Assembly: GCF_019968765.1 (NCBI RefSeq) | Contig: NZ_CP074150.1 | Coordinates: 1 to 64,000 of the forward strand | Direction: 5' to 3' | Length of the DNA: 64,000 nt | Source of the DNA: Enterobacter sp. JBIWA008 | GTDB taxonomy: Bacteria; Pseudomonadota; Gammaproteobacteria; Enterobacterales; Enterobacteriaceae | Shown: piece after piece, positions 13,039-30,890 of the stretch | How the letters are laid out: every line of letters starts with the position of its first letter | Position numbering within the stretch: the first letter of the stretch is position 1 | The notes under the pieces: generated by a model | What the model saw: only the letters and a program-made list of their open reading frames with translations | Databases searched by the model: none | What the model was told of the DNA's origin: nothing | Position numbers and translations under genes: made by a program

Positions 13039-14568
13039 TCACTCCTCGTCCTCTATGCCGGAGAAGCTCGCAGGTCCACCGAGTCGAAGCACAGCCTCTT
13101 CCAGTTCCCCGCCGATGACGGGTGGAGAAATATAAAACCCCTGAAAACTGCCCATCCCCATCTCTGCTAGGGCATTAAATTTTTCGCGGCTGTCCACTCC
13201 CTCAGCAATACACTGGCTACCCGTCAGCTGGCAGTAATAAATCAGTCCACGAATGAGGTTTTCGTCATGATGGTTATCCATAAAAGTGTCAATCAGCGAC
13301 ATATCCAGCTTGTATCCGCTGAACTGCACCTGCCTCACCGGAAACATCACACTTGCCTGTGAAAAGCAGTCATCAAGAAAAATCCGGTAACCCGCATCTC
13401 GCATTTCACGCACCGTATCAAGCGTTCCGGCATCCCGGTTAAGGTCGATAGTTTCAGCAAACTCCAGCACCAGGCGATCTGCCCACACCGGATCCCGCAG
13501 ACGGCTGCGGGCCGTTTCTGCCATACGGAAAAGCGACCCGCTGTCGGCCACGCACGGGGGAACGTTAACGGCAAAATACAGTCGGCCGTCAAACTGATTA
13601 ATTCGCTGAACCGCGGCATTAATGACAAAGGCAGTCAGCAGCATCCAGGTGTGCCGTGTACGTATCAGCGGCAGAAAATCTGCCGGCATCAGCACACGAC
13701 CATCCCGTAGCCATCGTGTCAGCACCTCAAATCCCTGCACACGCATGGTTCTGTCCACTACCGGCTGATATACCGGAAAGACCTGTCCATCACGGATGGC
13801 CTGTCCGAAAATGAGCTCCTCTGCTGACGGAGCGAGAAGACTGGCTGCCTTCGCCCGTTGAACAGGCTGACGCAGCTTAATGGGGAGCCGCTCAGCCGCA
13901 GAAGGCAGTTGTGACATTAGTTTGGACAGACCCGAGCGACGCTGGGCATAAAGCGTCTTAAACGACATCACGGATGGATTTCTGATTTTGTTCCCGCTCA
14001 TGTATTCCAGGGCAGCGTTCAGTTCACGGCCAGTCAGGGCCTCTGCCCGCCTGCCGGCTTGCTTTTCTTCGGCGACAGCCATCTGGCGCAGGGACTGGGC
14101 TGGATGCTTACCGCTGAGCAGATCTGCCAGCCTGCTGCATGGCATACTCGCTCTCCCGGCCATCAGGCTATGAGGCAGAACGGTACGTCCGGATAACCGC
14201 TGCAGCGTACGATACAGCCACGGTGCGCTAAAGTGACTCAGAATACTGATATGAGCGAAGGGAGCAGCCCGGCTGAGCAGATGTGCCAGCAGCTTCAGCA
14301 TCAACAGCGCAGATACGGGCTCCCGGGGTATGAAGATCAGCACCTGACGATCTGCGGGGATTGTATCCAACAGAGCAATATCCTCTTCAGGTCGTTCTCC
14401 GCCCGGCACTATCACCTCAGCACGGCGACTGCGCCCCTGCGACTTCAGCAGAGCAGCCAGGCCGCGGGCAGCCATACGGCAGGGGGAAAGAATGCAGACT
14501 ACGGAAGATACAGCCGGGCCGGCGGACTCTGCTTCACTGTGTGCTGTTACCATGCTATCAGTCATCAC
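13039..14568 (-). CDS. LuxR-HTH/EAL-domain c-di-GMP phosphodiesterase
   Basis: 509 residues. An N-terminal receiver-like region (about 20-165) is followed by a LuxR-type helix-turn-helix (LTGRELNAALEYMSGNKI and SVMSFKTLYAQRRSGL, 177-220) and a C-terminal EAL domain (about 255-495). The signature is EVL instead of EAL. The other catalytic positions are kept: NVPP, LEFAET, a DD pair (FLDDCFSQ), YKLDMSLI, IAEGVD and QGFYISPP. It would hydrolyse c-di-GMP to pGpG in the cytoplasm. EAL genes at the ends of fimbrial operons (SfaY, MrkJ) are known to link pilus expression to motility and biofilm. It lies downstream of the FKBP gene. Confidence 0.85.
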   Translation of the reverse strand: MMTDSMVTAHSEAESAGPAVSSVVCILSPCRMAARGLAALLKSQGRSRRAEVIVPGGERPEEDIALLDTIPADRQVLIFIPREPVSALLMLKLLAHLLSRAAPFAHISILSHFSAPWLYRTLQRLSGRTVLPHSLMAGRASMPCSRLADLLSGKHPAQSLRQMAVAEEKQAGRRAEALTGRELNAALEYMSGNKIRNPSVMSFKTLYAQRRSGLSKLMSQLPSAAERLPIKLRQPVQRAKAASLLAPSAEELIFGQAIRDGQVFPVYQPVVDRTMRVQGFEVLTRWLRDGRVLMPADFLPLIRTRHTWMLLTAFVINAAVQRINQFDGRLYFAVNVPPCVADSGSLFRMAETARSRLRDPVWADRLVLEFAETIDLNRDAGTLDTVREMRDAGYRIFLDDCFSQASVMFPVRQVQFSGYKLDMSLIDTFMDNHHDENLIRGLIYYCQLTGSQCIAEGVDSREKFNALAEMGMGSFQGFYISPPVIGGELEEAVLRLGGPASFSGIEDEE

Positions 14569-14627: not shown

Positions 14628-15980
14628 TCAGGGGCTATCGACACCCTGAATGCGCAGGTTGTAAACCATTGTTGCGCCCGGAGGAATATCCGGCGGGTAA
14701 CCCTTGTCGCCGTAGGCCAGCTCAGGGGGGACTACAAGGGTGATACTGCCATGATTTTTTAGCAGCCTTAGTGCCTTCTGAAACAGCCCAGGATAGGCAT
14801 TCAGGGGCTGAGAGACATATGAACCTCGGGTATCCATATCATTAATCACCTGACCGCTTGTCAGGGACTCCTTCACTGAAACGGTGATAAAGTCGGTGTC
14901 CCTGAACGCCGTATCTCCGGCGTAGTCAACAAGGTACAGGAATCCGTCCGGATGTTTTTTCACGCCTTTACGACGGGCAAAATCCTGCCGGTAGGCCTCA
15001 CCGACTTTCCGGGTATCCGCTACCAGCTTGCCCTGACGGGTTGCCACTGCCTTATCCTCTGCCAGTAACGTTTTCTTCAGTATGTCTTCAGGGAGTTGTA
15101 GTTGCCCTGTGAGGGTGTCCCGGATCCCGACCAGTGCCATCTCCCGATCAACATGAATACCTTCAGCTTCACGTGCTTTCAGCAGGGCGAGTATGTCGTC
15201 ACCCAGTGAGGTACCAATCGCGTAGTCCCTGACGGCCGCAGGGCCTTCCGGCTTATGCCGCTTCGGGGCTTTGCGTGCCTCAGCCAGAGCCGTCTGTATC
15301 TTACTCAGCTCGTCCGTAAGAGAAGTCAGGGCCGCTGATTTCTCCTTAAGCTGCTCCGTCAGCGACTGCTGTTGTGCCATGCTTTCACGCTTATTATTGT
15401 CAAGACTACTGCGCAGCTGCGTGATTTCCTGCTCCTTTGCAGTAACCAAAGCCCCCTGTTTCTCAAGGGAAGCCTTTTCATCCTGAAGAGCTGTATTCTG
15501 GCTCTGTGCTTCCCGGAGCGTAGTGGTCAGGGACTGTACTTTATGACCGGCAACCTCTGCCACCGCCTTCTGTGCAGCCAGACTTTGTTCAAGCTCCTGC
15601 ACTTTCCTGCGCAGCATCTCTGCCTGTCGAAGGTTCTCGTCCCGTTCATGGGTTAAAGCCGTCAGCGTTTCTGGCGCGACGGCGGCGGCCTGACGCGACA
15701 ACTGCTCATTAAGCGTCACAATGGTCCGTCCGAGTTCGTCAATCCGCTTCCTCTGAACCTGGAGCTGACGCTGCAGACGCTGCAGATCGGGGCGGGCCGG
15801 GGATGAAGAGTTGGTGACCGGTATTTCGTCAGCCGGCACTTCTGCAGCCATCCCCAGCAAAGCCGGTATACCGTTATCCGCACCTGCCCGCGCTCCCGCC
15901 GGCATCAGGGAAGACAGCAGAAGGCAAACCATTACGGACACTCTTAACCGATTTTTTTTTGTTATTACCATGTGACTCAC
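14628..15980 (-). CDS. Periplasmic coiled-coil protein with FKBP-type isomerase domain
   Basis: 450 residues. A signal peptide (VMVCLLLSSLMPAGARA) is followed by a long coiled coil (about 65-235, heptad-rich, Gln/Glu/Leu/Lys), an FkpA-like N-terminal helical domain (AIGTSLGDDILALLK) and a C-terminal FKBP domain with the signature VVPPELAYGDKGYPPDIPPG. It probably acts as a periplasmic prolyl isomerase/chaperone for pilins. The start overlaps the upstream pilin stop as ATGA, so the two are translationally coupled, which supports a role in this pilus system. Confidence 0.85.
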   Translation of the reverse strand: MSHMVITKKNRLRVSVMVCLLLSSLMPAGARAGADNGIPALLGMAAEVPADEIPVTNSSSPARPDLQRLQRQLQVQRKRIDELGRTIVTLNEQLSRQAAAVAPETLTALTHERDENLRQAEMLRRKVQELEQSLAAQKAVAEVAGHKVQSLTTTLREAQSQNTALQDEKASLEKQGALVTAKEQEITQLRSSLDNNKRESMAQQQSLTEQLKEKSAALTSLTDELSKIQTALAEARKAPKRHKPEGPAAVRDYAIGTSLGDDILALLKAREAEGIHVDREMALVGIRDTLTGQLQLPEDILKKTLLAEDKAVATRQGKLVADTRKVGEAYRQDFARRKGVKKHPDGFLYLVDYAGDTAFRDTDFITVSVKESLTSGQVINDMDTRGSYVSQPLNAYPGLFQKALRLLKNHGSITLVVPPELAYGDKGYPPDIPPGATMVYNLRIQGVDSP

Positions 15981-16456
15981 TGACCCCAGACCGCAGCATC
16001 CAGAGATACCACATAGGTATCTGCCGCTACGGACTGATTCCCCGCAGCGGTCAGAACGCTGATGTCAAGACGACCGGCACCGTTATCCGCCACAAACCAG
16101 CCCGGATAACCGGCAGAGAGGGTGGCTGGTGCCACAGAACTCACCTGCAGACGGTTATCAGAAAAACTCTTACCGGTCAGGGTACGTTGATTGCCACTCC
16201 CGTCCCGGGCCTCACTGCCTGACGGAGACCAGCGATAAGCTACAGGTCCTCCTGTCGCAATGGCTACAGCCGTGGCTATGACGCGCGAATTATGTATACC
16301 TGCCTGGAGGGCACTGACAGGTGTAACCGTGACAGCGGCTGTCCCCGTTTCCCGGAACACGACATCCGCAGTTCCGGTCACAATCGAAGAGATCGGGACG
16401 GCCTGCAGTGAAAATGCTGGCAGACACAGGGCTGCTGCAAGAACGGTTTTATTCAT
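15977..16456 (-). CDS. Pilin subunit, class A (paralogue of the major pilin)
   Basis: 159 residues with a signal peptide (MNKTVLAAALCLPAFSLQA). The mature part starts VPISSIVTGTADVVFRETGT and ends AADTYVVSLDAAVWGQ, closely matching the subunit at 19400-19900 and lacking Cys. It is immediately downstream of the lipoprotein gene and coupled to the FKBP gene. As a distal copy it may be a minor, tip or terminator subunit. Confidence 0.8.
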   Translation of the reverse strand: MNKTVLAAALCLPAFSLQAVPISSIVTGTADVVFRETGTAAVTVTPVSALQAGIHNSRVIATAVAIATGGPVAYRWSPSGSEARDGSGNQRTLTGKSFSDNRLQVSSVAPATLSAGYPGWFVADNGAGRLDISVLTAAGNQSVAADTYVVSLDAAVWGQ

Positions 16457-17215: not shown

Positions 17216-17725
17216 TCAGAACTGCCAGACAGCAGCATCTACAGACAATGGATAAGTCCCCACCGCTATAGTTTGGTTGTTTATGGTATTTATCGTTCCC
17301 CTTAAGGTTGATTGTCCCTGAGGACAAACAGCCCAGCCCGAATCAACAGTTGTATTACTCCAGTTACATTTTTCACTTAAGTATAAGAAAATAGTCAAAG
17401 AGATAGTGTTGTTACTGTTAGTGGTACTTGTTGCTACACCTGTTCCAACATTACCATTTGTTTTCATAATCGTCGGGTTTAGTCGAAACGCGACAGTACC
17501 AGCAGTCGCCGAAGCATCCCAGTCAGCCACTTTAGTTCCAGACTGATAAGTTGAAGCCAAAAGAGTGGTGACGGGCGTGAGGCTCAGGGTGACCTGCCCT
17601 GTGGTATTCACCACAATATTTTCCTGAGCAGTGGCAACAGTACTGGCCTCAGCAGCGATAGCTGCCGAGAACGGAAGCATAATCACCGCCATGCCTGAGG
17701 CCAGATATTTCGTTAATTTGTTCAT
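17216..17725 (-). CDS. Pilin-like subunit, class B
   Basis: 169 residues with a signal peptide ending SAAIAA. Class B features: a beta-rich body, VAFRLNPTIM, a Cys pair in EKCNWS...WAVCPQG, and a C-terminal IAVGTYPLSVDAAVWQF. It is the fourth of four adjacent class B genes. It is more AT-rich and more divergent than the others. The role would be as a minor subunit assembled by the FGL chaperone and usher. Confidence 0.75.
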   Translation of the reverse strand: MNKLTKYLASGMAVIMLPFSAAIAAEASTVATAQENIVVNTTGQVTLSLTPVTTLLASTYQSGTKVADWDASATAGTVAFRLNPTIMKTNGNVGTGVATSTTNSNNTISLTIFLYLSEKCNWSNTTVDSGWAVCPQGQSTLRGTINTINNQTIAVGTYPLSVDAAVWQF

Positions 17726-17754: not shown

Positions 17755-18282
17755 TCAGAATGTCCAGGCTACAGCATCAATCGCCACCGGATAGGTTCCC
17801 CCGATAAGGGTCTGTAATTTACCGGTTGCTGTAACTATTGTCCCGGACACAGCCTCACTACCTTCAGGGCAAACCCGCCACTGCCCCGACAGCGGAGCGG
17901 CGTTACTTGTGATTGTTCCCTGGTTGATACACGAAGATATAAGTAAAATTTCTATTCGTTGCGTAGCATTTGCATTGTTTTTTATGTATCCACCTGAATA
18001 GCTTGGTGTTGGAAACATCTGCACAATGGTCGGGTTGAGTCTGTACGCAATTGTGCCGCCAGTAGTTTTGGCGCTCCAGACAGCCATTTGCTGATTGCCA
18101 GTATAGTTACCGGCCAGAATGTTACCGGCCGGAGTAATGCTCACGGAGGCTTCTGCCGTCCCGGCTACAATCAGATTACGGGTCACCGTCTGCTGCGTGC
18201 CCGTCAATATTCCCGCTGCCGTAGCCGACAGAGAGGCCGTCAGCAGGGTCATTATCATTAGTGACTGCTGTAATTTATTCAT
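17755..18282 (-). CDS. Pilin-like subunit, class B
   Basis: 175 residues; signal peptide (LMIMTLLTASLSATAA). The body carries IAYRLNPTIVQMFPTPSYSG, a Cys pair (SSCINQ...WRVCPEG) and the common C-terminus GGTYPVAIDAVAWTF. It is 29 bases from the next class B gene, consistent with one transcript. Confidence 0.78.
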   Translation of the reverse strand: MNKLQQSLMIMTLLTASLSATAAGILTGTQQTVTRNLIVAGTAEASVSITPAGNILAGNYTGNQQMAVWSAKTTGGTIAYRLNPTIVQMFPTPSYSGGYIKNNANATQRIEILLISSCINQGTITSNAAPLSGQWRVCPEGSEAVSGTIVTATGKLQTLIGGTYPVAIDAVAWTF

Positions 18283-18300: not shown

Positions 18301-18795
18301 TCAAAATGCCCAGACAACACTGTCCACCGCCATCCGGTATGCACCACTTTGTATCACCTGTGAGCGGGTCAGCCCAACGGTACCACTGATACTGCTCACG
18401 CCCTGCGGACAGACCAGCCAGTTATCCGTGAGTGTGTATGCGGTACAGTCTGCCGCGCTCAGGGTAACCTCCACCTGCCGGGTGGCGTTACGGGTATTCT
18501 TTAGGAAGCCCGAATGCAGCACTGGCGTCGGATACTGCCCGACCAGATCCGGGTTAAGCCGCCAAGCCACTGTGCCCGCCGTCACCGACGCGCTCCAGCT
18601 ACCTATCACATACCCCATGCCGTAGCGGCCTGCCGGGAGCTCACTTACCGGCACCACGGACAGACTGGCCGTCCCGCTCGCATTTACGTTCAGATTACGG
18701 GTTGCCGTGACGCTGCTGCCCGTAAGGACTGCAGCCGTGCACGGTGCCGTCAGTACCGGCATCAGCAATGCCAGCAGAATTAATCCGGTTTTCAT
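18301..18795 (-). CDS. Pilin-like subunit, class B
   Basis: 164 residues; signal peptide (GLILLALLMPVLTAPCTA). Class B hallmarks are VAWRLNPDLVGQYPTPVLHS, DCTAY...NWLVCPQG and SGAYRMAVDSVVWAF. It shares the N-terminal TRNLNVNASGTASLSVVPVS pattern with its upstream neighbour. N-terminal donor-strand exchange is expected for FGL systems. Confidence 0.78.
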   Translation of the reverse strand: MKTGLILLALLMPVLTAPCTAAVLTGSSVTATRNLNVNASGTASLSVVPVSELPAGRYGMGYVIGSWSASVTAGTVAWRLNPDLVGQYPTPVLHSGFLKNTRNATRQVEVTLSAADCTAYTLTDNWLVCPQGVSSISGTVGLTRSQVIQSGAYRMAVDSVVWAF

Positions 18796-18820
18796 TACTT
18801 CACTCCCGACAGACTACCAT

Positions 18821-19339
18821 TCAGGGGGTCCATGCCACCGCATCCATTGCAATCGGATAGGTGCCACCCCGAAGATTCTGTGTCAGACCGCTTTTGGTCC
18901 TTATATACCCGCTCACGCTACTTTTGCCTGCAGGGCAAACCCTCCATGTCCCAGTCAGGGTCGTGCTGCCACAGTCATGATCCACGTAGATCTCTATCTG
19001 GGCTATCGGGGAAGGAGACATCTGGATATAACCGTCAAGATACGTGGGCGTTGTATACTGCTTCACGACTGTAGGGTTCAGGCGAAACGCAATGCTCCCC
19101 ACAGTGGCATTCGCCTGCCATGAGGCAAGAATCAGCCCGCCGGTTGCCAGACCTTCCAGAATGTTTGTCCGGGGCGTCAGGGTAATGGTCGCCTTACCTG
19201 TCGCCGCCAGCAGAATGACCCCGTTGTCACTCGCTGGTGCACTCTCTGTTGCTGCCTGCACGCCGGAAACCGTACACAGCCACAGCGAAACCATCATGAG
19301 GACCCTGTTTATCGCTGTCCCGCAGTTTCGTATTTTCAC
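18821..19339 (-). CDS. Pilin-like subunit, class B
   Basis: 172 residues; signal peptide (VLMMVSLWLCTVSGVQA). The body has IAFRLNPTVVKQYTTPTYLD, a Cys pair (DHDCGS...WRVCPAG) and the C-terminus GGTYPIAMDAVAWTP. It is the first class B gene after the putative major pilin, separated from it by a GC-rich hairpin. Confidence 0.78.
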   Translation of the reverse strand: MKIRNCGTAINRVLMMVSLWLCTVSGVQAATESAPASDNGVILLAATGKATITLTPRTNILEGLATGGLILASWQANATVGSIAFRLNPTVVKQYTTPTYLDGYIQMSPSPIAQIEIYVDHDCGSTTLTGTWRVCPAGKSSVSGYIRTKSGLTQNLRGGTYPIAMDAVAWTP

Positions 19340-19371
19340 TGGCCAGTCCTCCTCTGCAGAAAAGTCACATT

Positions 19372-19391
19372 CCCCTCCCTTACGGGAGGGG
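19372..19391 (-). terminator. Hairpin between major pilin and minor subunits
   Basis: A perfect CCCCTCCC/GGGAGGGG stem lies eight bases after the major pilin stop, followed on the minus strand by a weak TGACTTTTC tract. In fimbrial operons such hairpins stabilise the major-pilin message or attenuate read-through, so the major subunit is made in excess. Either role is inferred. Confidence 0.55.
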
Positions 19392-19399
19392 ACAGGACA

Positions 19400-19900
19400 T
19401 TATTCAGCCCAGACCGCTGCATCCAGCGATACCACATAGGTATCCGCCGCCACTGCCTGCTGCACAGGAGTGGTACGGATGGTGATATCCAGGGTGCTTG
19501 CGTTGCTGTTCGCTGCGTACCATTCCGGATAGGAAGGAGACACTGTCGCAGCCGCAGTGGAAACCACATTCAGCTTATTGGCAGCACTTGCTTTACCTGA
19601 AATGGTGCGCTGGGTATTGTCAGTACCGATAACCACGCTGGCAGCAGGCGTCCAGCGGTATGCAATCTGACCACCGGTAGCGGTTGCTGTTGCACGAGCC
19701 ACCAGGGTGCTGTTGTGCAGACCGGCCGTCAGGTTGGCTTCCGGGGTCACAATGATGGTGGCTGTACCGGTTTCACGGAACACCACATCACCGGTACCGG
19801 TCACAACGGATGATACCGGTGCTGCATGCGCCACACCCGCCGTACCTGCAACCAGCAGAGCAATGACAGACACGCGTTTAATGTTTTTAATAATTTCCAT
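19400..19900 (-). CDS. Putative major pilin, class A
   Basis: 166 residues with a signal peptide ending AGVAHA. The mature protein is Thr/Ala/Val-rich, Cys-free and beta-rich, with VVTGTGDVVFRETGTATIIV near the N-terminus and AADTYVVSLDAAVWAE at the C-terminus. It is the probable structural subunit because it is first in the pilin array, has a long 535-base leader and is followed by a hairpin. The family resembles non-fimbrial adhesin/polyadhesin subunits assembled by FGL chaperones, but I do not recognise a named pilus. Confidence 0.78.
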   Translation of the reverse strand: MEIIKNIKRVSVIALLVAGTAGVAHAAPVSSVVTGTGDVVFRETGTATIIVTPEANLTAGLHNSTLVARATATATGGQIAYRWTPAASVVIGTDNTQRTISGKASAANKLNVVSTAAATVSPSYPEWYAANSNASTLDITIRTTPVQQAVAADTYVVSLDAAVWAE

Positions 19901-20435: not shown

Positions 20436-20927
20436 TCAGGGCAGCAGAACCACCGCACGTAGCTGCAGCGGCCAGCCGTCCACCGGCAAGTCCTGCGCCC
20501 CATCCAGCTCCACGCTAAAGGTGGCACTCTGTCGGTCAGTATGAAGCACAATTCCGCGCCCCTTCTCCACGTCCGGCTGCCAGTCCTTCCCGGTAAGCCT
20601 GACGTTCATTTTGTGCGTGCTGTCCCGACGCCCCGTCAGCGTCACCTGCTGAGGTGCGCCATTCACACCACCTTCACTCCAGACACGAAAACCTGTATGT
20701 GGACCGTTGTAGACAACAGCCCCGGTGGCCAGCAGGCGCCCGTCAGGCAAACGTCCTGCTGTTTGTCCTTCCCGCATCTGCACCATCAGTTGCGGTTCAT
20801 CCGCAAGACAGATTCGGCTCACCAGCAGGAGGACCAGTATCACCGCCAGGCCAGGCCAGCGTTTGCTGACAAAGGATTGCCCGTTACCCGGACCTGCGAC
20901 CTCATCGACATTCGTTACGCATTTCAT
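20436..20927 (-). CDS. AfaD/AggB-like minor adhesin/invasin subunit
   Basis: 163 residues. A transmembrane signal (GLAVILVLLLVSRICLADEP) precedes the domain with GRLPDGRLLATGAVVYNG, HTGFRVWSEG and RDSTHKMNVRLTGKDW. This order closely matches the AfaD family of tip proteins in Afa/Dr and AAF systems. The start overlaps the usher stop by 26 bases. AfaD proteins normally have a Cys pair that I do not see here. The expected role is the tip subunit or a secreted invasin; host target unknown. Confidence 0.7.
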   Translation of the reverse strand: MKCVTNVDEVAGPGNGQSFVSKRWPGLAVILVLLLVSRICLADEPQLMVQMREGQTAGRLPDGRLLATGAVVYNGPHTGFRVWSEGGVNGAPQQVTLTGRRDSTHKMNVRLTGKDWQPDVEKGRGIVLHTDRQSATFSVELDGAQDLPVDGWPLQLRAVVLLP

Positions 20928-23406
20928 ATATTCCGGCCTCTCCTTTCTTCGCTGGCAGCGTATAGTTCACCCGACACTGATTACCTGACCAGCGCACCGT
21001 CATTTGCCCCTGTTCAGGCAGCCCTGTCAGATACACCTGACCATCTTCCCCCACCACGCCGGCACCAACACCCTGCCCTTCAAGGGTTGCCAACGCACCA
21101 TAAGGAACGACGGAGCCATCAGCACGGGTCAGACTCATCATTGCCCTGCCGCCGATACGGGTAGCAAACTTCGCCGGAATAACAGCCCCCTGTGTGGGCA
21201 CCACTTTGGTGTCCGTTTGCGTAATTTCCGCATCCGGCGGTAATTCTGCCGGGTTAAGGCTGATGCTGTTTTCCTGGTAAGGACTCAGGTAAGACAGCGT
21301 GGTGTATCCCCGCCAGTCCGTTCTGACTCCCGGCCACCCACCAACAGCCACTCCGGATGCTCCGGGCGCTTCAATCAGGGCTACTGTGTCACCCAGCGGC
21401 TGACCAAAGGTCACCCCATGTTCGTGCACAACTATACCGCCTGCCGCATCCACACCCATCTGCTTCGCATTGCGGCTTTGGCTATAGTTTGCCCCTGCCT
21501 GACCGTAAGCACCGTTCCACGCCAGGCGCAGTGTGCTGTTCGTGGTATCGTTATTTGCCGCCTCCGGGCGATAACGCTGACGAACATCCCAGTACATCCG
21601 GCGATCGAAGGCTCGCCCGCTTAACCCCACCTCGTGAGTATCTCCTCCCTCGGATGGCGTGGTGTAGCGATAAGATGCAGTGGTACCACTACCCAGCAGA
21701 CTGTCCAGCGGCACGCTGAACCAGAGGCTCGCCACGCGGTCCTTGCGCTGATTTCCGTCACTGTCGACGTTTTTGTTCTCCGTCCAGTTAAGGGATACTG
21801 TCGTATCCTTTATGTTGAACGAGTATCCTGCGTTCAGGGAGTCGTTATGCCCCGGACGGTTCCAGTACGTCTCCCGGGACCCGGTCAGGGTCAGGTAACC
21901 CCAGTCATTCAGTGCCTGGCTCACCGTCAGCGCAGTACGCGTCCGGCGACGGTCATTACTGCCCGTCCATGGCCTTTCAGGATTATCACGCCAAGTTTCC
22001 AGCACATCTGAAAGAGTGCTGTACCCAGTGGATGCATACTGGTAACTTGCCAGGGTAAACGTCGTGTTTGTGGACACTACCTGCTTACTGTAGCGTGCAC
22101 GCCAGGTGCGGCCATTTTCCGTCTCTTCTTCGCGACGCTGTCCACGTGTCTCGGTTGCATCCACCGAGAACGCCCCCCAGTCCCCAAACGCTATCCCAAG
22201 CCCCAGCGTGCCGGCCTGATAATGCTCAGATACCTGAGCCCCCGTATAGGCCGTAAGGTTCCACGGCAAGCCGTACATGGCAGTCGCCTGGTACACCATC
22301 GGGTTATTGACCGACTTGTCTGACGGTCTGTACAGCCCGACCATCACGCTGTACTGCAGATAACCTTCACGCAGTGCAATAGCCGGCGTCTGGTAGGGCA
22401 CGGTAAAGACCTGGTTACGGCCATCTGTTTCACGCACGATGACCTCAAGGTCACCGCCGGAGCCGGTCGGCGTCAGGTCACTCAGGGCAAACGGCCCTGG
22501 TGCTACCATACCGCTGTACAACAGGTAGCCGGCCTGACGCACCTCAATTCGTGCCTGAGTGCGGGCCACGCCCCGCACCACCGGGCCGTAAGAATACTGC
22601 CCCGCCGGCAGCATGCCTTCATCAGAGTTAAGCATCACCCCGCGAAACGGTACGCTGTCAAAAATCTCTGCCGGCGTGCTGCGCTCACCAAGAGTAATGC
22701 GGCTTTTAATACCGTTCAGTCCGCGCTCAGCATAGGTATATGCAGACTGCCAGCTTCCTTTACCATCCGACTTTTGCCAGGTACTGGCGTTTCTCAGTCG
22801 CCACGCGCCGGCGTTAATACCAGGCTGTAACTGCACAAAAGTTGTGTCTGTTTTTTCGTTCTGCCCGTCACCGGACAACTCCGAGCGGCTAGTGTTTGCC
22901 TGCCAGTTCAGCAGCAGGGCCGGCACCCCGTCATTCCACAGCGATTCAGCAGCAATCCCCTGAAGGCGGGGGCGTAGGGAAACCTGTGGAATCAGCAGAT
23001 TCAGCTCCTGACTATTAAAGTCATAGTCCGTGCGGGCTTGCGGAATAACAGAGATATCCGCGCAGGCTACCGCCTTCCCCTCACCTGACAGGGAGGGGAA
23101 TGATTCCGTTTTTACGCCATAGCGCGACAATTGCTCAGGAGTCAGGCAGGGCACCAGTACGGGCTTGCCTGACGCATCTTTCCCCTGGGTGAATACCACA
23201 TCCCGCGTATCCACTCGTTCACCGTTCAGCTTAATGTCCACCGGGTAGGTGCCCGGCAACTGCCCGCCTTTCTCAAAAAGCGAAACATCAGCATTTGCTG
23301 CCGCAGCCCCCTCCAGCAGCGAAGCATCAAAACTGTACTCACGCGCGACGGACTGCCCCGCCAGACACGCAAGACTTACAGCCAGCGCCGGACGTGAAAT
23401 CTTCAT
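20902..23406 (-). CDS. Outer-membrane usher (FGL-type chaperone-usher)
   Basis: 834 residues; signal peptide (LAVSLACLAGQSVA). The N-terminal chaperone-binding domain starts EYSFDASLLEGAAAANADVS. The FimD/PapC signature region GELRSTPAEIFDSVPFRG-like follows, then a large beta-barrel and C-terminal plug-binding domains ending with a Cys-containing tail (GNQCRVNYTLP...MRNECR). Length fits Caf1A/AfaC ushers. GGAGCAGGGA precedes the ATG. It forms the pore through which pilins are polymerised and is coupled to the AfaD-like gene. Confidence 0.93.
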   Translation of the reverse strand: MKISRPALAVSLACLAGQSVAREYSFDASLLEGAAAANADVSLFEKGGQLPGTYPVDIKLNGERVDTRDVVFTQGKDASGKPVLVPCLTPEQLSRYGVKTESFPSLSGEGKAVACADISVIPQARTDYDFNSQELNLLIPQVSLRPRLQGIAAESLWNDGVPALLLNWQANTSRSELSGDGQNEKTDTTFVQLQPGINAGAWRLRNASTWQKSDGKGSWQSAYTYAERGLNGIKSRITLGERSTPAEIFDSVPFRGVMLNSDEGMLPAGQYSYGPVVRGVARTQARIEVRQAGYLLYSGMVAPGPFALSDLTPTGSGGDLEVIVRETDGRNQVFTVPYQTPAIALREGYLQYSVMVGLYRPSDKSVNNPMVYQATAMYGLPWNLTAYTGAQVSEHYQAGTLGLGIAFGDWGAFSVDATETRGQRREEETENGRTWRARYSKQVVSTNTTFTLASYQYASTGYSTLSDVLETWRDNPERPWTGSNDRRRTRTALTVSQALNDWGYLTLTGSRETYWNRPGHNDSLNAGYSFNIKDTTVSLNWTENKNVDSDGNQRKDRVASLWFSVPLDSLLGSGTTASYRYTTPSEGGDTHEVGLSGRAFDRRMYWDVRQRYRPEAANNDTTNSTLRLAWNGAYGQAGANYSQSRNAKQMGVDAAGGIVVHEHGVTFGQPLGDTVALIEAPGASGVAVGGWPGVRTDWRGYTTLSYLSPYQENSISLNPAELPPDAEITQTDTKVVPTQGAVIPAKFATRIGGRAMMSLTRADGSVVPYGALATLEGQGVGAGVVGEDGQVYLTGLPEQGQMTVRWSGNQCRVNYTLPAKKGEAGIYEMRNECR

Positions 23407-23447
23407 TCCCTGCTCCTCAGGTTTACCTTCCGTTCACTGGCTGCTGA

Positions 23448-24212
23448 CTACTGCAGCGTCGCCTGAAAATCGCGGCTGTCACCGCCGTAATCAGTGATAA
23501 CCTTCCACTGCACCAGACCGGATGCTCCGGCAGGTAGCGAGAAATTTTTCTCCCCGCGCGGCGCGATGTAATCGAGATTCTCAACCTTGCGCCCACCTAC
23601 CTTCACATCCTTCAGGTTCATGTAGTAAGGTGTCGGGTTAATAACCTTCAAGTGTCCCCCATCCCGCTTCCATGTCAGCTTGTCTGCCGAATCTGATACA
23701 TCCCCCTTAATGGAAGACGGACGCAGGAACAGTTTGATGCAGCTGTTAATACGAAGCTGAACCTCAAGTGTCGCTTCTTTAGGTGCCTGAGTTTTACCGT
23801 CCTTATCCTGCCCCCACACGTCTTCCGGTTTAGGAGGCACGCCGGTAATGCATACCCAGGAAAGGCTTTCGCGATCCTGCGGGAAGCCCCCTCCGGTCCG
23901 CACAACGCGAACGCGGCTCTGCTGATTTCCGTCCAGTCGGAATAGTGGTGGCGTAACCATGTACGGCGCCTTGCTTTGCTTGTCTTCACCGTAAACCTGC
24001 GTCTGCACCAGGATTGGGTAATCCTGAGGGTTGATGACGGGCAGCGTGGCACCAGACGAATCTGGGTTGTAAACGATACGTGTGGCGCCGAGCTTTACGG
24101 AAAATGACTTCGTATTCGTATTAATTTTTTGCTCTTCAGCCAGAGAAGTACCGGAGAGCAGCATAAGCGTCACGGTCAGTCCGGTAAGGGTTGCGCGCCT
24201 GGAAGATTTCAC
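23448..24212 (-). CDS. Periplasmic FGL-subfamily pilus chaperone
   Basis: About 254 residues from a GTG at 24212 with a GAGAGG ribosome-binding site and signal peptide (LTGLTVTLMLLSGTSLA). An ATG at 24248 lacks a ribosome-binding site. The sequence has SFSVKLGATRIVYNPDSSGA, QVYGEDKQSKAPYMVTPPLF (G1 region), and the disulfide pair in WVCITGVPP and INSCIKLFLRP that, with the long F1-G1 loop, defines the FGL (Caf1M/AfaB) subfamily. It is first in the operon, directly downstream of the invertible segment. Confidence 0.93.
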   Translation of the reverse strand: MKSSRRATLTGLTVTLMLLSGTSLAEEQKINTNTKSFSVKLGATRIVYNPDSSGATLPVINPQDYPILVQTQVYGEDKQSKAPYMVTPPLFRLDGNQQSRVRVVRTGGGFPQDRESLSWVCITGVPPKPEDVWGQDKDGKTQAPKEATLEVQLRINSCIKLFLRPSSIKGDVSDSADKLTWKRDGGHLKVINPTPYYMNLKDVKVGGRKVENLDYIAPRGEKNFSLPAGASGLVQWKVITDYGGDSRDFQATLQ

Positions 24213-24264
24213 ATTCACCTCTCGTCTCTTAACATCGCTGAGTGTCATTACTGGTTACCAAACT

Positions 24265-24586
24265 TTACATTTAGGACCATTTTGACAACCTTGGTAAAAT
24301 GCTGGAATAATAAAAATAAAAAACAATATTTAGTAATTAACTCTAAATATTTGCATTTATTTAGTGGAATGTTCCAGTTGGTGAGGATTGAAGGATTCTG
24401 TAGCAAAGAGGAGATGTGATTTCGGAAGGTAATAATAACGAACTGTAAGAGTATTCCTATGAGGTGCAAATAATAAAATTTAGAATTATCAATAATATAA
24501 AGCGTTGTGTTTTATGTTTGTTGAAGTTTTATTGAGCAAAGATGACATGTTCACTATGATAGTTGTCAGTTTGGTCCTAAATGTAA
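24265..24586. promoter_or_regulatory. Predicted invertible promoter switch (fimS-like)
   Basis: 25-bp inverted repeats bound a 322-bp AT-rich segment: 24265-24289 (TTACATTTAGGACCATTTTG...) and 24562-24586 (its reverse complement with three mismatches; the first 15 bases are identical). The element lies exactly between a FimB-like recombinase gene and the chaperone gene, and its size is close to that of E. coli fimS. A promoter inside it points away from the fimbrial genes in the present orientation. Inversion would aim it at the chaperone. Confidence 0.82.
24532..24560 (+). promoter_or_regulatory. Sigma70 promoter inside the invertible segment
   Basis: TTGAGC (24532-24537), a 17-base spacer and TATGAT (24555-24560), ending one base before the right inverted repeat. 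It would fire rightwards, antisense to the recombinase gene, as sequenced. After inversion the same promoter would fire left through the other repeat into the chaperone-usher operon. Confidence 0.65.
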
Positions 24587-25158
24587 CCCTTACTGTTTGT
24601 TTTTTTTGCCCAAACATATCTGAATCGTGCAGGATTACTGGCCGTATAACGTACTGTGTGGCGGATGTTTTTGTGCCCAAGGTAATCCTGAATCAGCCTA
24701 GTATCAATTCCTCTGTCTGCTAGGGCAAACCCGCAGGCATGCCTGAGCATATGCGGATGCGACGGTACTTCCACCCGAGCTCTCTCGCCCAGCATCCTAA
24801 TTATCTGATAGATCCGCTGGCGGGTGAGGGGTTTTCCCTGTCGGGACAGGAACAGCCAGTCGCTGTCAGCACCTCGCATGGAGCGACGGACATCCAGCCA
24901 GAGCCGGATAGCCTCTTTTTCCTCCTCCAGAAGGGGATGAATGGTGCAGAATCCTTGTTTCAGACGGTTGATCCGCAAGCTTCCCTCTTTCAGGCTCAGG
25001 TCTGAAAGCTGCAGATTTCGCAACTCTGTGACTCGAAAACCGTGAATAAAACTCATGTAAAGGAGACAGTAATTACGTTCAGGGCTGCTGTTGTTTTTTG
25101 CCGCAGCAAGCATGTCTTCGACTTCGGCAGCAGTGAGATATTTTCGTTTAGGTGGCAT
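24577..25158 (-). CDS. FimB/FimE-type tyrosine recombinase beside the switch
   Basis: 193 residues from the ATG at 25158 (AGGAGA ribosome-binding site); an upstream frame to 25209 lacks support. Catalytic residues: Arg in HGFRVTEL, HMLRHACG, DYLGHKNIRHT and Tyr in TVRYTAS. It is a single-domain recombinase like FimB/FimE, expected to act on the inverted repeats. Its last codons (Tyr-Ile-stop) lie inside the right repeat and within the 15 bases shared by both repeats, so inversion would preserve the reading-frame end. Related to the recombinase at 7258-7830. Confidence 0.9.
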   Translation of the reverse strand: MPPKRKYLTAAEVEDMLAAAKNNSSPERNYCLLYMSFIHGFRVTELRNLQLSDLSLKEGSLRINRLKQGFCTIHPLLEEEKEAIRLWLDVRRSMRGADSDWLFLSRQGKPLTRQRIYQIIRMLGERARVEVPSHPHMLRHACGFALADRGIDTRLIQDYLGHKNIRHTVRYTASNPARFRYVWAKKTNSKGYI

Positions 25159-25354
25159 GAATCGTTCTCCTGTTAAATAGTGATGTCCCTTATCATAAGG
25201 ACTTCGCAAACGGAGTATTATGCAGGGAGGTGGAAAGGGATCAACCTGAAAGGCAAATCAATGATGAAATCATGATTTCAGAATGAATAAATATTCATAG
25301 ATAATTCCTATCTGACTGACTAAGAATTCGGGATGTCAGCCACTATAAAAACGT

Positions 25355-26410
25355 GGCTTTGTTGAATAAATCAGATTTCGGGTAAATATCTCCGTAGCGG
25401 GTTGTGTTTTCAGACAATACGCACGCTTTCAGGCATACCTGCTTTCGTTATTTTGTTCAACGCTCGCACCATGGCCATAGCCTCCGCAACCTGACCATCG
25501 TAGTCACGCAGTGTCAGTGAACCGCCGAACAACTGTTTTACCCGGTACATCGCCGTTTCCGCTATCGAGCGACGGTTATAATCTGTTGTCCATTTCCACC
25601 GCGCATTACTCCCGGTCAGTCGTTGATTAGCCACTGCACGGTTACGGTCTGCGTATTCACCAGGCCAGTAACCCGCGCCTTTTCGGGGCGGGATAAGCGC
25701 GCTGATTTTCTTACGCCTCAGTTCATCGTGACAGAGCCGGGTGTCGTAGGCCCCATCTGCCGCTGCTGCCCTGATTTTCCTGTGAGTCTGTCGGATAAGA
25801 CCCGGGAAGGCTTCTGAGTCCGTGACGTTGTTCAGCGACAGGTCTGCGCAGATGATTTCATGTGTGTTGCTATCAACAGCCAGATGCAGCTTTCGCCAGA
25901 TACGACGGCGCTCTTTGCCGTGTTTTTTGACTTTCCATTCACCTTCACCAAAAACTTTCACCCCGGTGGAATCAATCACCAGATGCGCGATTTCACCCCG
26001 GGTGGGAGTTTTGAAACTGACATTGACCGATTTCGCCCGCTTGCTGACACTGCTGTAATCCGGGCAGCGCAGCTGAACATTCATCAGGGCAAAAACGGAA
26101 TCTATAAAACCCTGCGCGGCTCGCAGGGTGAGCCGGAATACGCGTTTAATCACCAGAACGGTGGTGATGGCCAGGTCAGAATAACGCTGAGGTCTTCCCC
26201 GGGATGAAGGCGTTGCCGACTCATACCAGGAATGAATCGCTTCATTGTCCAGCCAGAAAGTGAGGGAGCCACGGTTGATAAGGGCTTTGTTGTAGATGGA
26301 CCAGTTGGTGATTTTGAACTTTTGCTTCGCTACGGAACGGTCTGCGTTGTCGGGAGGATGTGTGATCTGATCCTTCAACTCAGCAAAAGTTCGAATTATT
26401 CAACAAAGCC
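25355..26410 (-). mobile_element. IS903-like insertion sequence (IS5 family)
   Basis: 1056 bp bounded by GGCTTTGTTGAATAA at the left end and its inverse TTATTCAACAAAGCC at the right end, the IS903-group ends and length. The nine bases on the two sides (TAAAAACGT and CCTCTGCCC) do not match, so there is no target duplication. Confidence 0.92.
25410..26378 (-). CDS. IS903-group transposase
   Basis: 322 residues, or about 307 from an internal GTG giving AKQKFKITNWSIYNKALINR, the usual IS903 start. DDE transposase of the IS5 family: HLVIDSTGVKVFGEGEW, AAADGAYDTRLCHDEL and RRSIAETAMYRVKQLFGG contain the catalytic D, D and E regions. The frame is intact and fills the element, so it is probably active. 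Confidence 0.95.
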   Translation of the reverse strand: MKDQITHPPDNADRSVAKQKFKITNWSIYNKALINRGSLTFWLDNEAIHSWYESATPSSRGRPQRYSDLAITTVLVIKRVFRLTLRAAQGFIDSVFALMNVQLRCPDYSSVSKRAKSVNVSFKTPTRGEIAHLVIDSTGVKVFGEGEWKVKKHGKERRRIWRKLHLAVDSNTHEIICADLSLNNVTDSEAFPGLIRQTHRKIRAAAADGAYDTRLCHDELRRKKISALIPPRKGAGYWPGEYADRNRAVANQRLTGSNARWKWTTDYNRRSIAETAMYRVKQLFGGSLTLRDYDGQVAEAMAMVRALNKITKAGMPESVRIV

Positions 26411-26662
26411 CCTCTGCCCTGCTCCGTTATCTGGCGCGAAGGGGCAAATATTGCCGCGTTGCTTATTCCCTCACCGTGGTATACTTCCGGAAAGTTGTTA
26501 TACGCCAGAAATTCGGCTCACAACCAAACGGGCATCCGGTAATTTAACGGCGTGGCTATATTCTGGGTTATTATCACATGAGAAATGATTACAGCAGGGT
26601 AATGCAACGACAATCATCATCAGGGATGTCACAAAAATAATAATCATAAGTGACTGTTGCAC

Positions 26663-26965
26663 ATGAACACATCTTCCCATGAAAGCGAGCGCGTTCCGGT
26701 TTCACTTGAAACCGTCTGGCGGGCACTGACCGCCCTCGGTCATCAGCGGCTCTGGCTCCGCCCTCCGGATGAGCGAAGTGTGAACACCTGGCTGGTTGTC
26801 ACCTGGGGCGGCCTGACGGTGGCAGAACGTATCCGGGCCTCCGGCTCCTGGTGGCTGACCGGGGATGCGAATGCCATCTACACCAATCCGGAACGGATCG
26901 TCCCGGACGGGCTGGAAGAGCTCACCTGGCTGTCGGTGCAGCGGCGAATGAAGGACGGATTCTGA
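26663..26965 (+). CDS. Hypothetical plasmid protein
   Basis: 100 residues from the second ATG (26663), Trp-rich, with a VWRALTALGHQRLWLRPPDE start and a DGLEELTWLSVQRRMKDGF end. No signal peptide or membrane segment. I do not recognise a family. It lies between the IS903-like element and a damaged membrane-protein gene. Confidence 0.5.
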   Translation: MNTSSHESERVPVSLETVWRALTALGHQRLWLRPPDERSVNTWLVVTWGGLTVAERIRASGSWWLTGDANAIYTNPERIVPDGLEELTWLSVQRRMKDGF

Positions 26966-27016
26966 AGCCTATCGGGGACAAGCGGCAGGGAGGGATTTCT
27001 CAGCTAAGGAATAATC

Positions 27017-27813
27017 ATGGGTAATGTCATAACGGATACAGAACAGATGAAAACAGTTGTGCTGGGTGTTTCGGCCTGAATGCCAGTGATCTCAACCCTT
27101 TCCGGAGGTGTGCTGGCTGGCGGTGTTGCATTACTGGTGAGCTGGGTAAATCACCGTTACGCACGTGAACGTGAAGCCACTGCAGCAGCGGAACGTCTGC
27201 GACATGAGCAGAAACTCACTGAGGACAAACGCCAGGAGGAGCTTCTCTACATCACCACTGAGCTGGTTTTTACCCTTGAAATATTTGCTGAAGAATGTGC
27301 CAGAGTGGCAGATGACATCTGGTGAGCCAGATGAAAGGGGGGGGGGAATATCGACCCACAACAAAGACACCAGAACTGGAGATTTCAGATATCAAGGGTG
27401 ACTGGCGAACGCTTCCTGCACTGATAATGTATCGGATCCGCGAGCTGCCGGTCCTGATGAATGAAGCGCTCCGGAATATTTCAGCAGCAGCGGAAAATGA
27501 CTGGGCCCCTGATTATACGGAGAGTTTTCAGGAGAGGCAGTACCAGTATGCACGTCTGGGGCTGAAAGCCCTGACCCTCGCCCGACGCCTGCGTCAGCTG
27601 GCTTGTTTGCCGGGGACCCGCCTTGATGCCACTGAGTGGTCTGCACAGCCTGTACTCTGGCGGAGATGGCGCCTGGAGCGTAATCGTCGTTACCAGCAGC
27701 GTATTCTGCGTGAGCGCGAACTGGCCACTTTTCAAATCGCAAATAACCAACATAACCAGAATCACGGACAGCATGATAAACCTGCAGGTCCGGATCACGG
27801 TGACACCCCATGA
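27017..27813 (+). pseudogene. Membrane-anchored coiled-coil protein, multiply broken
   Basis: An AAGGA site precedes the ATG at 27017. The first 20 codons end at TGA (27077-27079), and the same frame continues directly with MPVISTLSGGVLAGG, a membrane helix and a coiled coil (YAREREATAAAERLRHEQ). It stops at 27325 and resumes in another frame after a run of ten G (27337-27346) as EYRPTTKTPELEISDIKGDW to 27813. A natural reading is one protein of about 260 residues with a Trp-to-stop change and indels. Function unknown. Confidence 0.55.
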
Positions 27814-28559
27814 TGCCGTTTGTTCCCGCCCAGAGCGTTTCGTTTTCCGCAGCTCAGCTGCCGGTGGCCATCGATTATCCGGCCGCGCTGGCACTGCGCC
27901 AGATGGCGCTCGTTCAGGACGAACTGCCGAAATACCTGCTGTCGCCGGAAGTGAGCGCCCTGCTCCACTACGTGCCCGATCTTCACCGTAAGATGCTGCT
28001 GGCCACCCTGTGGAACACCGGCGCCCGTATTAACGAAGCACTGGCACCGCCCTACCCGTTCTTGCAGCTGGCCACGCTCAAACAGCGCGCAGAAAAAGCA
28101 GCCAGAACGGCCGGACCTGCTCCAGCCGGTAGACAGCCTCATCGTATCGTTCCGCTTTCCGACCCGCAGTATGTCAGCCAGCAGGAAATGATGGTGGCCA
28201 CCTTGAAAATTCCGCTGGAGCGACGTAAAAAACGCACCGGCAGAACCGAGAAGGCACGGATCTGGGAAATCACAGAAAGGACGGTCAGGACCTAGATAAA
28301 TGAAGCAGTTGATGCGGCTGCCGCCGACGGGGTGACCTTCTCAGTGCCGGTGACGCCACACACGTTCCGCCACTCCTACGCCATGCACATGCTGTATGCT
28401 CGCATTCCACTCAAGGTGCTGCAGAGCTTAATGGGACACAAATCGAGCAGCTCGACGGAAGTTTATACGAGGGTATTTGCACTCAATGTTGCTGCCAGAC
28501 ACAGGGTACAGTTTTCAATGGCAGAGGCTGATGCTGTTGCAATGATGAAAACCAGATAA
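27810..28559 (+). pseudogene. resD: ResD-type tyrosine recombinase with internal stop
   Basis: Two segments in one frame, separated by TAG at 28293-28295: an N-terminal part (RQMALVQDELPKYLLSPEVS, ATLWNTGARINEAL with the first catalytic Arg) and a C-terminal part (TPHTFRHSYAMHMLY, LMGHKSSSSTEVYTRVFAL with the catalytic His-Arg-His-Tyr). A TGG-to-TAG change is the simplest cause. ResD resolves F plasmid multimers and sits beside RepFIB, as here. The initial ATG overlaps the upstream pseudogene. Confidence 0.75.
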
Positions 28560-28711
28560 CTTAAATTTTCAGTATTTACAGATAGTTGTAACGAAACCAA
28601 CTTATTCTATAATAAATTAATCTTGCGTTACGTGAAAACCGACAGGGTTCCAGGGGATCACAGGCCGGAATTCACGTAGAGCACTTTACCTCTTCTTCGT
28701 TTCTTACCTTT

Positions 28712-29038
28712 TTGTTCCGATCCTGTTCATACGGGCATTACCCCATTTCACCAGAACGCATTTCACTGTTGCCGATAGCCCATGGGGTCGACTTTGCAAC
28801 CGCGGTCGCACTCATAAGGATGGCCACCTTAACCGGCCCCCCCCTGGCTTACCTCCTCGCCTCTGAAGTGAAAGCCCTGCTCTTCCATATGCCGGATCTG
28901 CGCCATTACATGCTGTTCTCCACTGTCTGGAAAACCGTTGTGCAGCTCGGTGAATCCGGTATGCTGACCCCGGAATCCTTTGATCTCGACGGGTTAAGAC
29001 CCTTTGTGAAAATACCGGGCTCAGGACATCCGGTCTGA
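28712..29038 (+). pseudogene. Second ResD-like gene, N-terminal remnant
   Basis: 108 residues. [21 protein letters not shown] and [20 protein letters not shown] closely match the N-terminus of F ResD as I remember it, and [20 protein letters not shown] follows. The frame ends near 29038 where the catalytic C-terminal half should begin, and the sequence goes straight into the RepFIB repeats. The first catalytic Arg is replaced in [12 protein letters not shown]. Confidence 0.65.
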
Positions 29039-29047
29039 TGCACAATA

Positions 29048-29275
29048 TTGACTGAGTGATGAAGGGACACATATCGCAGTGAAGATGTTCAGCAGACTGC
29101 CCGCTCTTCCACGCATCGCAGTCAATATCAATACCCCAGTAGCCATATTCGCATATTGCAGTCAAGGCAAGCAAAACCTAAAAGGGATGATGAATCTGTA
29201 TAAATTGACTGTGGTATGCAGATCGCATACCACAGTCAACAAATCCTAAAACAGCATACCTCAGTCATTTTCCGG
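29048..29275. repeat. RepFIB iterons, downstream cluster
   Basis: Several copies of a TTGACTGTGGTATGC-like sequence in both orientations, for example TTGACTGTGGTATGC at about 29206-29220 facing GCATACCACAGTCAA at about 29227-29241, with weaker copies near 29055, 29115 and 29150. These are RepFIB initiator-binding repeats on the 3' side of the rep gene. Confidence 0.75.
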
Positions 29276-30271
29276 TTTCACGCTGCCGAGCGCTTTTGCC
29301 AGTTTCTGAGGATCAATACCTGCAGCCTTCAGGGCTTTAATCACTTCGTCATAGTTCTGCTCAGGTACTTCCTCTTCCGGCTCACGGGGAACAACGACCT
29401 TGCTACTGATGAGTTTCGGATTACGGTAATGTACGCTGAAGTAGGTGGCCCGGCCGCGTTTGAATTCGGTGTAATCCAGATAGCCGATATCCTTCAGCTG
29501 CGCCATAGCTTTGCGCACCGTGTGGTTCTGCGTGTAGATGTTAGACGTCAGGTTGAGTCTGTCTCGCATACGCTTCATGGAGATTGGGGCCGGATTCTGC
29601 GGCAGGCTTTCGATGTAGGTATAGAGTGCCTGTGCGGACTCCTTGCGCTGCAGGGCATCGATAGCCTTCAAACGCAATAGGACCCGCCTGTCCATCTGAT
29701 AAAGCTCAAAGAGCTTGGGCTCCGCCCTGATCTCCACGACATCGGCAGTGATGTCGTAATAGGCAGACTGAACTAGGTGCGTAGTCCACCCTTTCGTTTC
29801 ACTCTGAAACTTGAGGGTTACGGATGCCAGCTTGAACAGGGAGTTGCTTATCCTGTCGCGCATTTTCTTGTTAGAGCGCCGGGAGTCAAAGCCACACATT
29901 TTAACGAACTCAACAAAAGACAGCTTGAGAGTGTCATCCTTGACGCCAAAATCATACATTGAACGGATGATTCCAAGCCAGACTTTGAAGTCCGTATCCA
30001 TATCGAGGCGCGATCCGGTGATCATGACATCGGTATACCCTTCACTGCGAGCAATGGACAACTGTACGAGCTCCTCAGTCGCATCCGTGACGTTTTTGCG
30101 GTTCGTCTTACTCCTGGAGGTCGATTTCAGTGTAGGAACGAACAGACCAAGCCTCATGAGTGCAACAGGCTGAACAGTACTGGCGCTGTTGACATCCAGC
30201 TTAACAACTTCGCCCGTTGTCTTGTTGACCTCCTGAAGATTCAGGGGTAACTCATTATTTTCCATAGCCAT
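29261..30271 (-). CDS. repFIB: RepFIB replication initiator
   Basis: 336 residues of the Rep_3/initiator family (two winged-helix domains). Marker stretches include LNLQEVNKTTGEVVKLDVNS, TSRSKTNRKNVTDATEELVQ and YFSVHYRNPKLISSKVVVP. It would bind the surrounding iterons, open the origin and repress its own promoter. Iteron clusters flank the gene on both sides, the standard RepFIB layout, and the sop locus follows. With repA at position 1 the plasmid is at least a two-replicon plasmid. Confidence 0.93.
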   Translation of the reverse strand: MAMENNELPLNLQEVNKTTGEVVKLDVNSASTVQPVALMRLGLFVPTLKSTSRSKTNRKNVTDATEELVQLSIARSEGYTDVMITGSRLDMDTDFKVWLGIIRSMYDFGVKDDTLKLSFVEFVKMCGFDSRRSNKKMRDRISNSLFKLASVTLKFQSETKGWTTHLVQSAYYDITADVVEIRAEPKLFELYQMDRRVLLRLKAIDALQRKESAQALYTYIESLPQNPAPISMKRMRDRLNLTSNIYTQNHTVRKAMAQLKDIGYLDYTEFKRGRATYFSVHYRNPKLISSKVVVPREPEEEVPEQNYDEVIKALKAAGIDPQKLAKALGSVKPEND

Positions 30272-30286
30272 TTTATTAACCCGCGG

Positions 30287-30890
30287 TTATCCACAAAGGA
30301 AAGTATATACGCATATCACAGTCAACGGAAATACATACCCCAGTTAATACAATTGCATACCGCAATAGGTGATCCCGCACACAACAGTCAACATACTACA
30401 CACCACAGTTAATGAAGATAGTCTCCGAGCCCAGGCGCAACGGTGCGCTGCACGATCCGGGGATCTCTTTTTGATCTCACTATGATCTCCTTGAGGATCA
30501 ATTATTGGATCGAAATATGGAATAACTACCAGCATCCCGTACATATGGACTACTGACATGACACAATACGAATCCTGGTACAACCACCCGGTAATACAAT
30601 ACCCGGAAAGGCAATAATCTTGACTGTGATATGCAGAAAAATGTATTCCATTGCCCTTCCCTGTTCCTGTTCCTGTTCCTGTTCTGCTTCATGCCGCAGT
30701 CAATAATCTACATACTGTAGTCAATTTCTCACCATTCAGAACCATCCGCTGGATCTTCGCTAGCTTCAGAGCGTCAGCCACACCTTGTAAGTACGCAGTA
30801 ATTCCTCTTCCTCGACGCATGCGCCTGCGTGCACATGTTTTCTGCGGCGAGCGGATAATATTGACTGAAGTATGCGGCAGACTTTCAGGT
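30287..30890. other. RepFIB origin: DnaA box and upstream iterons
   Basis: A perfect DnaA box TTATCCACA at 30287-30295 lies just upstream of the initiator gene. Beyond it are many iteron-like copies: CATATCACAGTCAA and CATACCCCAGTTAA near 30311-30345, ACAACAGTCAACATAC near 30380, TTGACTGTGATATGC near 30618, CCGCAGTCAATAATC near 30695 and TTGACTGAAGTATGC near 30860. Copies run in both orientations. No gene is visible between 30272 and 31023. Confidence 0.8.

Follow-up and report, generated by a model that had tools for sequence, protein, structure and literature searches.

How is the fimbrial operon in this stretch of plasmid-like DNA controlled, and what part is played by the short inverted-repeat element that separates it from a gene encoding a FimB-type recombinase? 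The window (the whole 64,000-nucleotide stretch analysed here) comprises bases 1–64000 of a 94,231 bp contig, C2, in a five-contig genome. C2 is regarded as plasmid-like because the plasmids it matches best come from Enterobacter, the likely host genus, and carry RepB and SopA genes; a match to an E. asburiae plasmid covers 88% of 26600–46000 at 96.8%. Judged from its sequence, the locus very probably represents a fimS-type invertible promoter that drives a plasmid-borne Saf/Afa-like (FGL) pilus operon by way of the adjacent FimB-type invertase. The features concerned are listed in Table 1.

Table 1. Coordinates of the element, the adjacent invertase gene and the pilus operon in the window
Feature	Position	Strand	Remarks
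Left 25-bp inverted-repeat arm, operon side	24265..24289	+	core TTAGGACCA at 24271-24279, inner flank TTTTGACAAC
Right 25-bp inverted-repeat arm, recombinase side	24562..24586	-	core at 24572-24580 (-), inner flank AACTGACAAC
Predicted invertible segment, core to core	24271..24580	.	310 bp; 29.7% G+C (window 52%)
Predicted operon promoter TTGAGC-N17-TATGAT	24532..24560	+	now reads away from operon (OFF)
FimB-type tyrosine DNA invertase	24577..25158	-	likely ATG at 25158 after AGGAG; frame open from 25209; stop inside right core
FGL-type periplasmic chaperone	23448..24212	-	likely GTG start at 24212; frame open from ATG at 24248
Outer-membrane usher, SafC-like	20902..23406	-	
AfaD/SafD-type protein	20436..20927	-	
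SafA-like subunit 1	19400..19900	-	
SafA-like subunit 2	18821..19339	-	
SafA-like subunit 3	18301..18795	-	
SafA-like subunit 4	17755..18282	-	
SafA-like subunit 5	17216..17725	-	
SafA-like subunit 6	15977..16456	-	51% identical to subunit 1
FKBP-type peptidyl-prolyl isomerase, long N-terminal part	14628..15980	-	probably same transcription unit
EAL-domain protein, c-di-GMP phosphodiesterase type	13039..14568	-	probably same transcription unit

The element occupies 322 bp (24265–24586), with arms that are 88% complementary and lie 272 nt apart. The 25-bp repeats with their three mismatches and spacing are as given in the preliminary description, and the promoter described there is likewise present on the + strand, its hexamers (TTGAGC at 24532–24537, TATGAT at 24555–24560) pointing away from the fimbrial genes and ending one base before the right arm. 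The element was also said to lie between the recombinase and chaperone genes. This placement holds, except that the recombinase gene reaches into the element: its TAG stop codon (24577–24579, − strand) falls inside the right 9-bp core, so that gene and repeat overlap by 10 bp. The repeat score of 16 was reached by none of 200 dinucleotide shuffles of 23900–25300, yet the shuffle maximum was 14 and the inverted repeat by itself is therefore just moderately above chance. The promoter by itself is not above chance, with five promoter-like sites in 23400–25400 against a shuffle mean of 2.7 (sd 1.5). Two copies of the 9-bp core are found in the window, and these are the arm pair (0.37 occurrences expected). 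A better consensus match than TTGAGC/TATGAT, TTGACA-18-AATAAT (11/12), has its start in the left arm and is directed into the element, away from the operon; it may form part of a recombinase binding site. The promoter scan found no promoter-like site on the − strand of 24212–24600 as sequenced, and an IHF-site scan gave no match.

Comparison with other genomes identifies the element more clearly. The preliminary description called it fimS-like, and cores, arm flanks, promoter and global alignment all match E. coli MG1655 fimS. The cores are TTAGGACCA in the window and TTGGGGCCA in E. coli; the unequal arm flanks TTTTGAC and AACTG are found on the same sides in both; and the window promoter has its counterpart in TTGAGA-N18-TATGAT at the same place in MG1655. 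Global alignment to MG1655 fimS scores 184.5 in the same orientation and 128.0 when inverted, with 200 shuffles giving a mean of 136.1 (sd 8.3) and a maximum of 163.5. The pattern TTAGGACCA-N280-310-TGGTCCTAA is matched by 14 elements in 10 of 392 family genomes, and its reversed control has no match in the same 392 genomes. Given this conservation and the agreement of core, flanks and promoter with MG1655 fimS, the element can be taken as certain, and a chance inverted repeat is ruled out by the shuffles together with the conserved core pair and its empty reversed control. By its anatomy it appears to be a genuine fimS-type switch, that is, a known mechanism rather than a new one, placed before an unusual class of pilus. 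Its genome yielded no other such element and a single copy of this one, and a search of the plasmid collection with 23900–25209 for an inverted form found neither a match nor a near relative.

Conservation of the repeats in relatives that keep the recombinase had been put forward as a point on which the preliminary reading would stand or fall, and such conservation is seen. Among 23 loci with invertase relatives (L013–L035, 55–72% identity), 14 carry TTRGGRCCA core pairs 240–340 bp apart. Those that lack the pair are L017, L024, L025, L026, L028, L029, L032, L033 and L034, among which a variant 19-bp repeat with TAGGACCA is seen at L029, and 14-bp repeats built on other cores at L033 and L034. 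Core-pair elements are also found with no adjacent invertase match, at L075 and L076 (both in genome G106) and L080 (contig G091:C55), and may be flipped from a distance. Two of these three lie beside long secreted-looking ORFs of 946 and 875 amino acids (autotransporter-like by eye only) and the third precedes genes that read as a fimbrial operon.

The recombinase, earlier described as FimB-like, can be placed more firmly. It passes the cut-offs of two NCBIfam DNA invertase models (NF007370, 248.9 bits against 221; NF007371, 234.6 against 222) and conserves all five FimB catalytic residues R47, H141, R144, H167 and Y176 (the RHRY list is given in the part of PMC9820224 consulted). There is a weak promoter match upstream of the gene, at 25244–25217. 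Another FimB-type invertase, which shares 50% identity with the first and has intact catalytic residues, is encoded at 7258–7830 (+ strand). No core-type repeat is seen beside it, and it might work at a distance on the element at 24.3 kb. In five of the related loci (L015, L021, L023, L031 and L035) the invertase frame continues through the recombinase-side core into the element, so that the C-terminal tail of the protein should change with orientation. A recombinase gene that overlaps its own element has a precedent in ipuA, according to the portion of PMC6083910 consulted.

On the − strand, reading from right to left, invertase and element are followed by genes for the chaperone, the usher, an AfaD-type protein and six subunits. 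The closest solved relatives of the chaperone are DraB (9.7e-90), the 2co6 chaperone solved with SafA (1.8e-73) and Caf1M (1.2e-61); its best FimC match (4.8e-30) is far behind the FGL chaperones. In a tree of 33 ushers, the window usher belongs to a clade of 20 (support 100/100) that includes a SafC, with FimD and the ushers of fot, Photorhabdus and other FGS systems outside it, and its sister is a Providencia plasmid usher to which it is 63% identical. The aligned F1–G1 loop segment of the chaperone measures 51 residues, the ranges for FGL rows (43–54) and others (37–49) overlapping. A profile built from the six subunits finds SafA chains at 1.1e-11 and weaker; a Pfam search of the same six gave no match. 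The pilus was previously assigned to the FGL type, and chaperone relatives, usher clade and SafA-like subunits all bear this out (FGL/gamma3-like). The NCBIfam Saf models score below their cut-offs, however (SafB 269.9 bits against 475, SafC-type usher 1091.2 against 1105, SafD 114.2 against 213, SafA 22.4 against 204), and for this reason the operon is described as Saf-like, not Saf.

Six paralogous SafA-like genes are present in the one FGL operon, followed by genes for an FKBP-type isomerase and an EAL-domain protein (13039–19900, − strand). FGL fibres are mostly made of one or two subunit types, as stated in the part of PMC9820224 consulted. EAL-domain genes are also seen near other invertase-linked fimbrial genes, at L030 14223–14618 and L028 8818–9912 (Enterobacter soli and E. 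coli plasmids).

Across the family, FGL pilus and fimS-type control appears, on sequence grounds, to be a rare pairing. AfaD (PF05775) was found in 17 of 392 genomes, its 23 matches above cut-off merging to 20 loci. An invertase match lies within 10 kb of AfaD at two of the 20 (several contigs being short, some may have been missed): the window and contig G091:C49 (locus L043, probably Erwinia sp. OLFS4). The same two were the only ones with an element in the 1.5 kb upstream of 20 FGL operons, a scan that omits L048, L095 and the short L096, the first two of which have no invertase match. Only two of 61 genomes of the window's genus have AfaD, and the other, G008, has no invertase match in the stretches examined. 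When a joined invertase–chaperone query was run against 72,556 plasmids, 3467 records matched and one, from Hafnia alvei, was covered over at least 80% in one place; its usher falls outside the FGL clade, and the operon is not FGL. The FGL operon of one Providencia plasmid has a 51% identical invertase ~5 kb upstream, with no core pair. Three of eight annotated plasmid FGL loci (L032 and L036–L042) have Pap-type regulator genes (L036, L039 and L042); near the other five are helix-turn-helix genes, insertion sequences or nothing obvious. The earlier statement that no Afa/Caf-type system was known to be controlled in this way is thus softened, given the second FGL operon with such an element in G091, albeit beside a broken invertase copy.

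How might the switch work? The adjacent invertase would recombine the two 9-bp cores and turn the 310-bp segment round. In the ON state, the −10 box would lie on the − strand 11 bp inside the left core, ending at ~24291 (a position obtained by arithmetic), and transcription would start near 24284, cross the repeat and, after a leader of ~72 nt, reach the chaperone gene at its likely GTG start (24212), with the usher, AfaD-type protein and subunits following in that order. In the OFF state, which is the one sequenced, the same promoter would read towards the recombinase gene and enter it at its 3′ end. The parts of this scheme that are read from sequence are fimS membership, the intact catalytic residues, the operon class and the orientation; we infer that the element inverts today, that the operon is transcribed mainly from the element's promoter and that co-transcription extends over the − strand genes as far as ~13 kb. 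Recombinase gene and operon share a strand, so that read-through from the invertase gene might express the operon whichever way the element points.

The orientation was judged against 30 distinct elements (three duplicate rows having been dropped), 18 of which could be oriented by their unequal arms and an adjacent invertase match. The remaining 12 were left unscored: three orphans without an adjacent recombinase, and nine Photorhabdus elements with equal arms (TTTTGAC is found on both arms in L013–L020 and L081–L084, so the arm marker gives no orientation). In all 18 orientable elements, the window and MG1655 included, the AA.TG arm is the one next to the recombinase. For 14 of these the −10-like box of the best outward promoter lies 8–13 bases inside the recombinase-side core; in the other four (L030, L073, L074 and L077) it is not the best pick near the core. 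Since in MG1655 a recombinase-side promoter reading away from fimA is the definition of OFF, and since the window has its AA.TG arm and promoter as in OFF MG1655 fimS, the sequenced copy is taken to be OFF, in agreement with the earlier call. All 18 elements are OFF and none is ON. As a yardstick, a 160-bp query for the OFF fimA-side junction of E. coli was covered to at least 80% in 4423 of 4677 matching genomes (~95%), the other 254 being possibly ON or otherwise changed. A junction query from a fot-like plasmid matched 17 records among E. coli genomes, two of them over 80% of its length; shorter matches have lower identity, and in these divergence and inversion are indistinguishable. The arm flanks AACTG and TTTTGAC offer a simple sequence marker of ON and OFF in many assemblies.

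That only one orientation is seen is also what gives some weight to a different reading, in which the fimS-type element is locked OFF, or nearly so, because the invertase is unexpressed or inactive on these arms, and the operon is silent or expressed by read-through only. Decay of this kind does happen, as the invertase copy of G091:C49 is in broken pieces. In the window, however, the invertase frame is open with every catalytic residue present, and the arms are as in relatives. Moreover, OFF is the usual assembly state of the active E. coli switch, so that a small sample that is all OFF is to be expected even when a switch is active. We therefore consider a locked element unlikely.

A good deal less probable is that the element chiefly controls the recombinase (by antisense transcription or through its 3′ end), or acts on other sites, with the pilus operon regulated separately. 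It is true that the promoter as sequenced is antisense to the 3′ end of the recombinase gene, the stop codon of which is in the core, and that a second invertase is encoded in the window. The core is identical in both arms, however, so inversion leaves the end of the recombinase unchanged; the operon strand has no further promoter-like site in the interval from element to chaperone gene; and the order recombinase–element–fimbrial operon is that of known switch-controlled operons. Control of the Pap/Afa type, in which Dam methylation and Lrp would bring about phase variation and the inverted repeat would play no part, can be dismissed as barely credible: Afa/Dr expression is reported to be phase variable through Dam and Lrp (in the part of PMC8764528 consulted) and Pap-type regulator genes accompany some plasmid FGL loci, as noted above, but GATC is absent from 24200–24660, the 1501 bp that precede the chaperone gene contain no GATC pair 95–110 bp apart, and no PapB/PapI-like gene was noticed, by inspection rather than profile search, between operon and invertase.

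A fimS-type switch acting on the pilus operon thus remains the preferred reading. If true, it would mean that a switch and a class of pilus can travel independently of one another and that an FGL pilus can be made all-or-none in each cell through DNA inversion. A broader idea, which we put forward tentatively and think somewhat doubtful, is that the fimS cassette is a portable module captured at least twice independently by FGL operons (in the window and in Erwinia), where it replaced other control, so that the class of pilus and its mode of phase variation would be swapped one without the other. One inversion here would then turn on, besides the fibre, six alternative subunits, a prolyl isomerase and an EAL-domain c-di-GMP enzyme and so tie adhesion to a change of lifestyle. 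In the sections of the literature consulted, promoter inversion is reported for fim, fot and mrp, and FGL systems form a single clade, gamma3 (PMC9820224); the known fimbrial switches are given as fim, fot, mrp, mad and Kpc (PMC5903667); and FGL polyadhesins are discussed with dedicated regulators, promoter inversion with FGS systems (PMC9820224, PMC8764528). No description of an FGL operon under an invertible promoter turned up in the literature, searched among open-licence papers and mostly by listing.

Among known systems, the window switch resembles fimS and FimB/FimE of E. coli type 1 fimbriae in its arm flanks, in its promoter hexamers and their position and in its invertase family. The 9-bp cores differ by A/G at two places and the element measures 310 rather than 314 bp. 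Unlike fim, the window has one adjacent invertase instead of two, a switch that stands before a chaperone gene and not the major subunit gene, and a pilus that is plasmid-borne and FGL/gamma3 rather than FGS; and whereas the window invertase stops inside the core, MG1655 fimE ends 51 bp before it. The closest invertases (~70% identity) are those of the Photorhabdus switch (L013, L014, L016 and L018–L020), which we presume to be mad, the name being our assumption for these species. This switch shares TTAGGACCATTTTGACAA arms with the window but has TTTTGAC on both and precedes a long FGS operon with several chaperones. The fot switch of CS18 fimbriae (L027 and L086), reported to invert in the part of PMC9820224 consulted, is also plasmid-borne, in E. 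coli and Klebsiella, and has the window's core sequence, an invertase 63–64% identical and an invertase stop codon in the core; in contrast to the window, it has two divergent invertase genes and an FGS-type operon headed by the major subunit.

In gene content the operon is like Saf pili of Salmonella and Afa/Dr of E. coli (chaperone, usher, AfaD/SafD and SafA-like subunits), from which it differs in having six subunit genes and, upstream, an invertible element rather than a Pap-type regulator or no local one. Its nearest counterpart in arrangement is G091:C49, where invertase copy, element, chaperone, usher and AfaD-type protein follow in the same order and the element has the same cores, arms as in the window and a retained −10 box. 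There, however, the invertase copy is broken (L043 5178–5478), the usher is not the sister of the window usher, and the element resembles another that precedes a different fimbrial operon in the same genome (266 of 310 columns).
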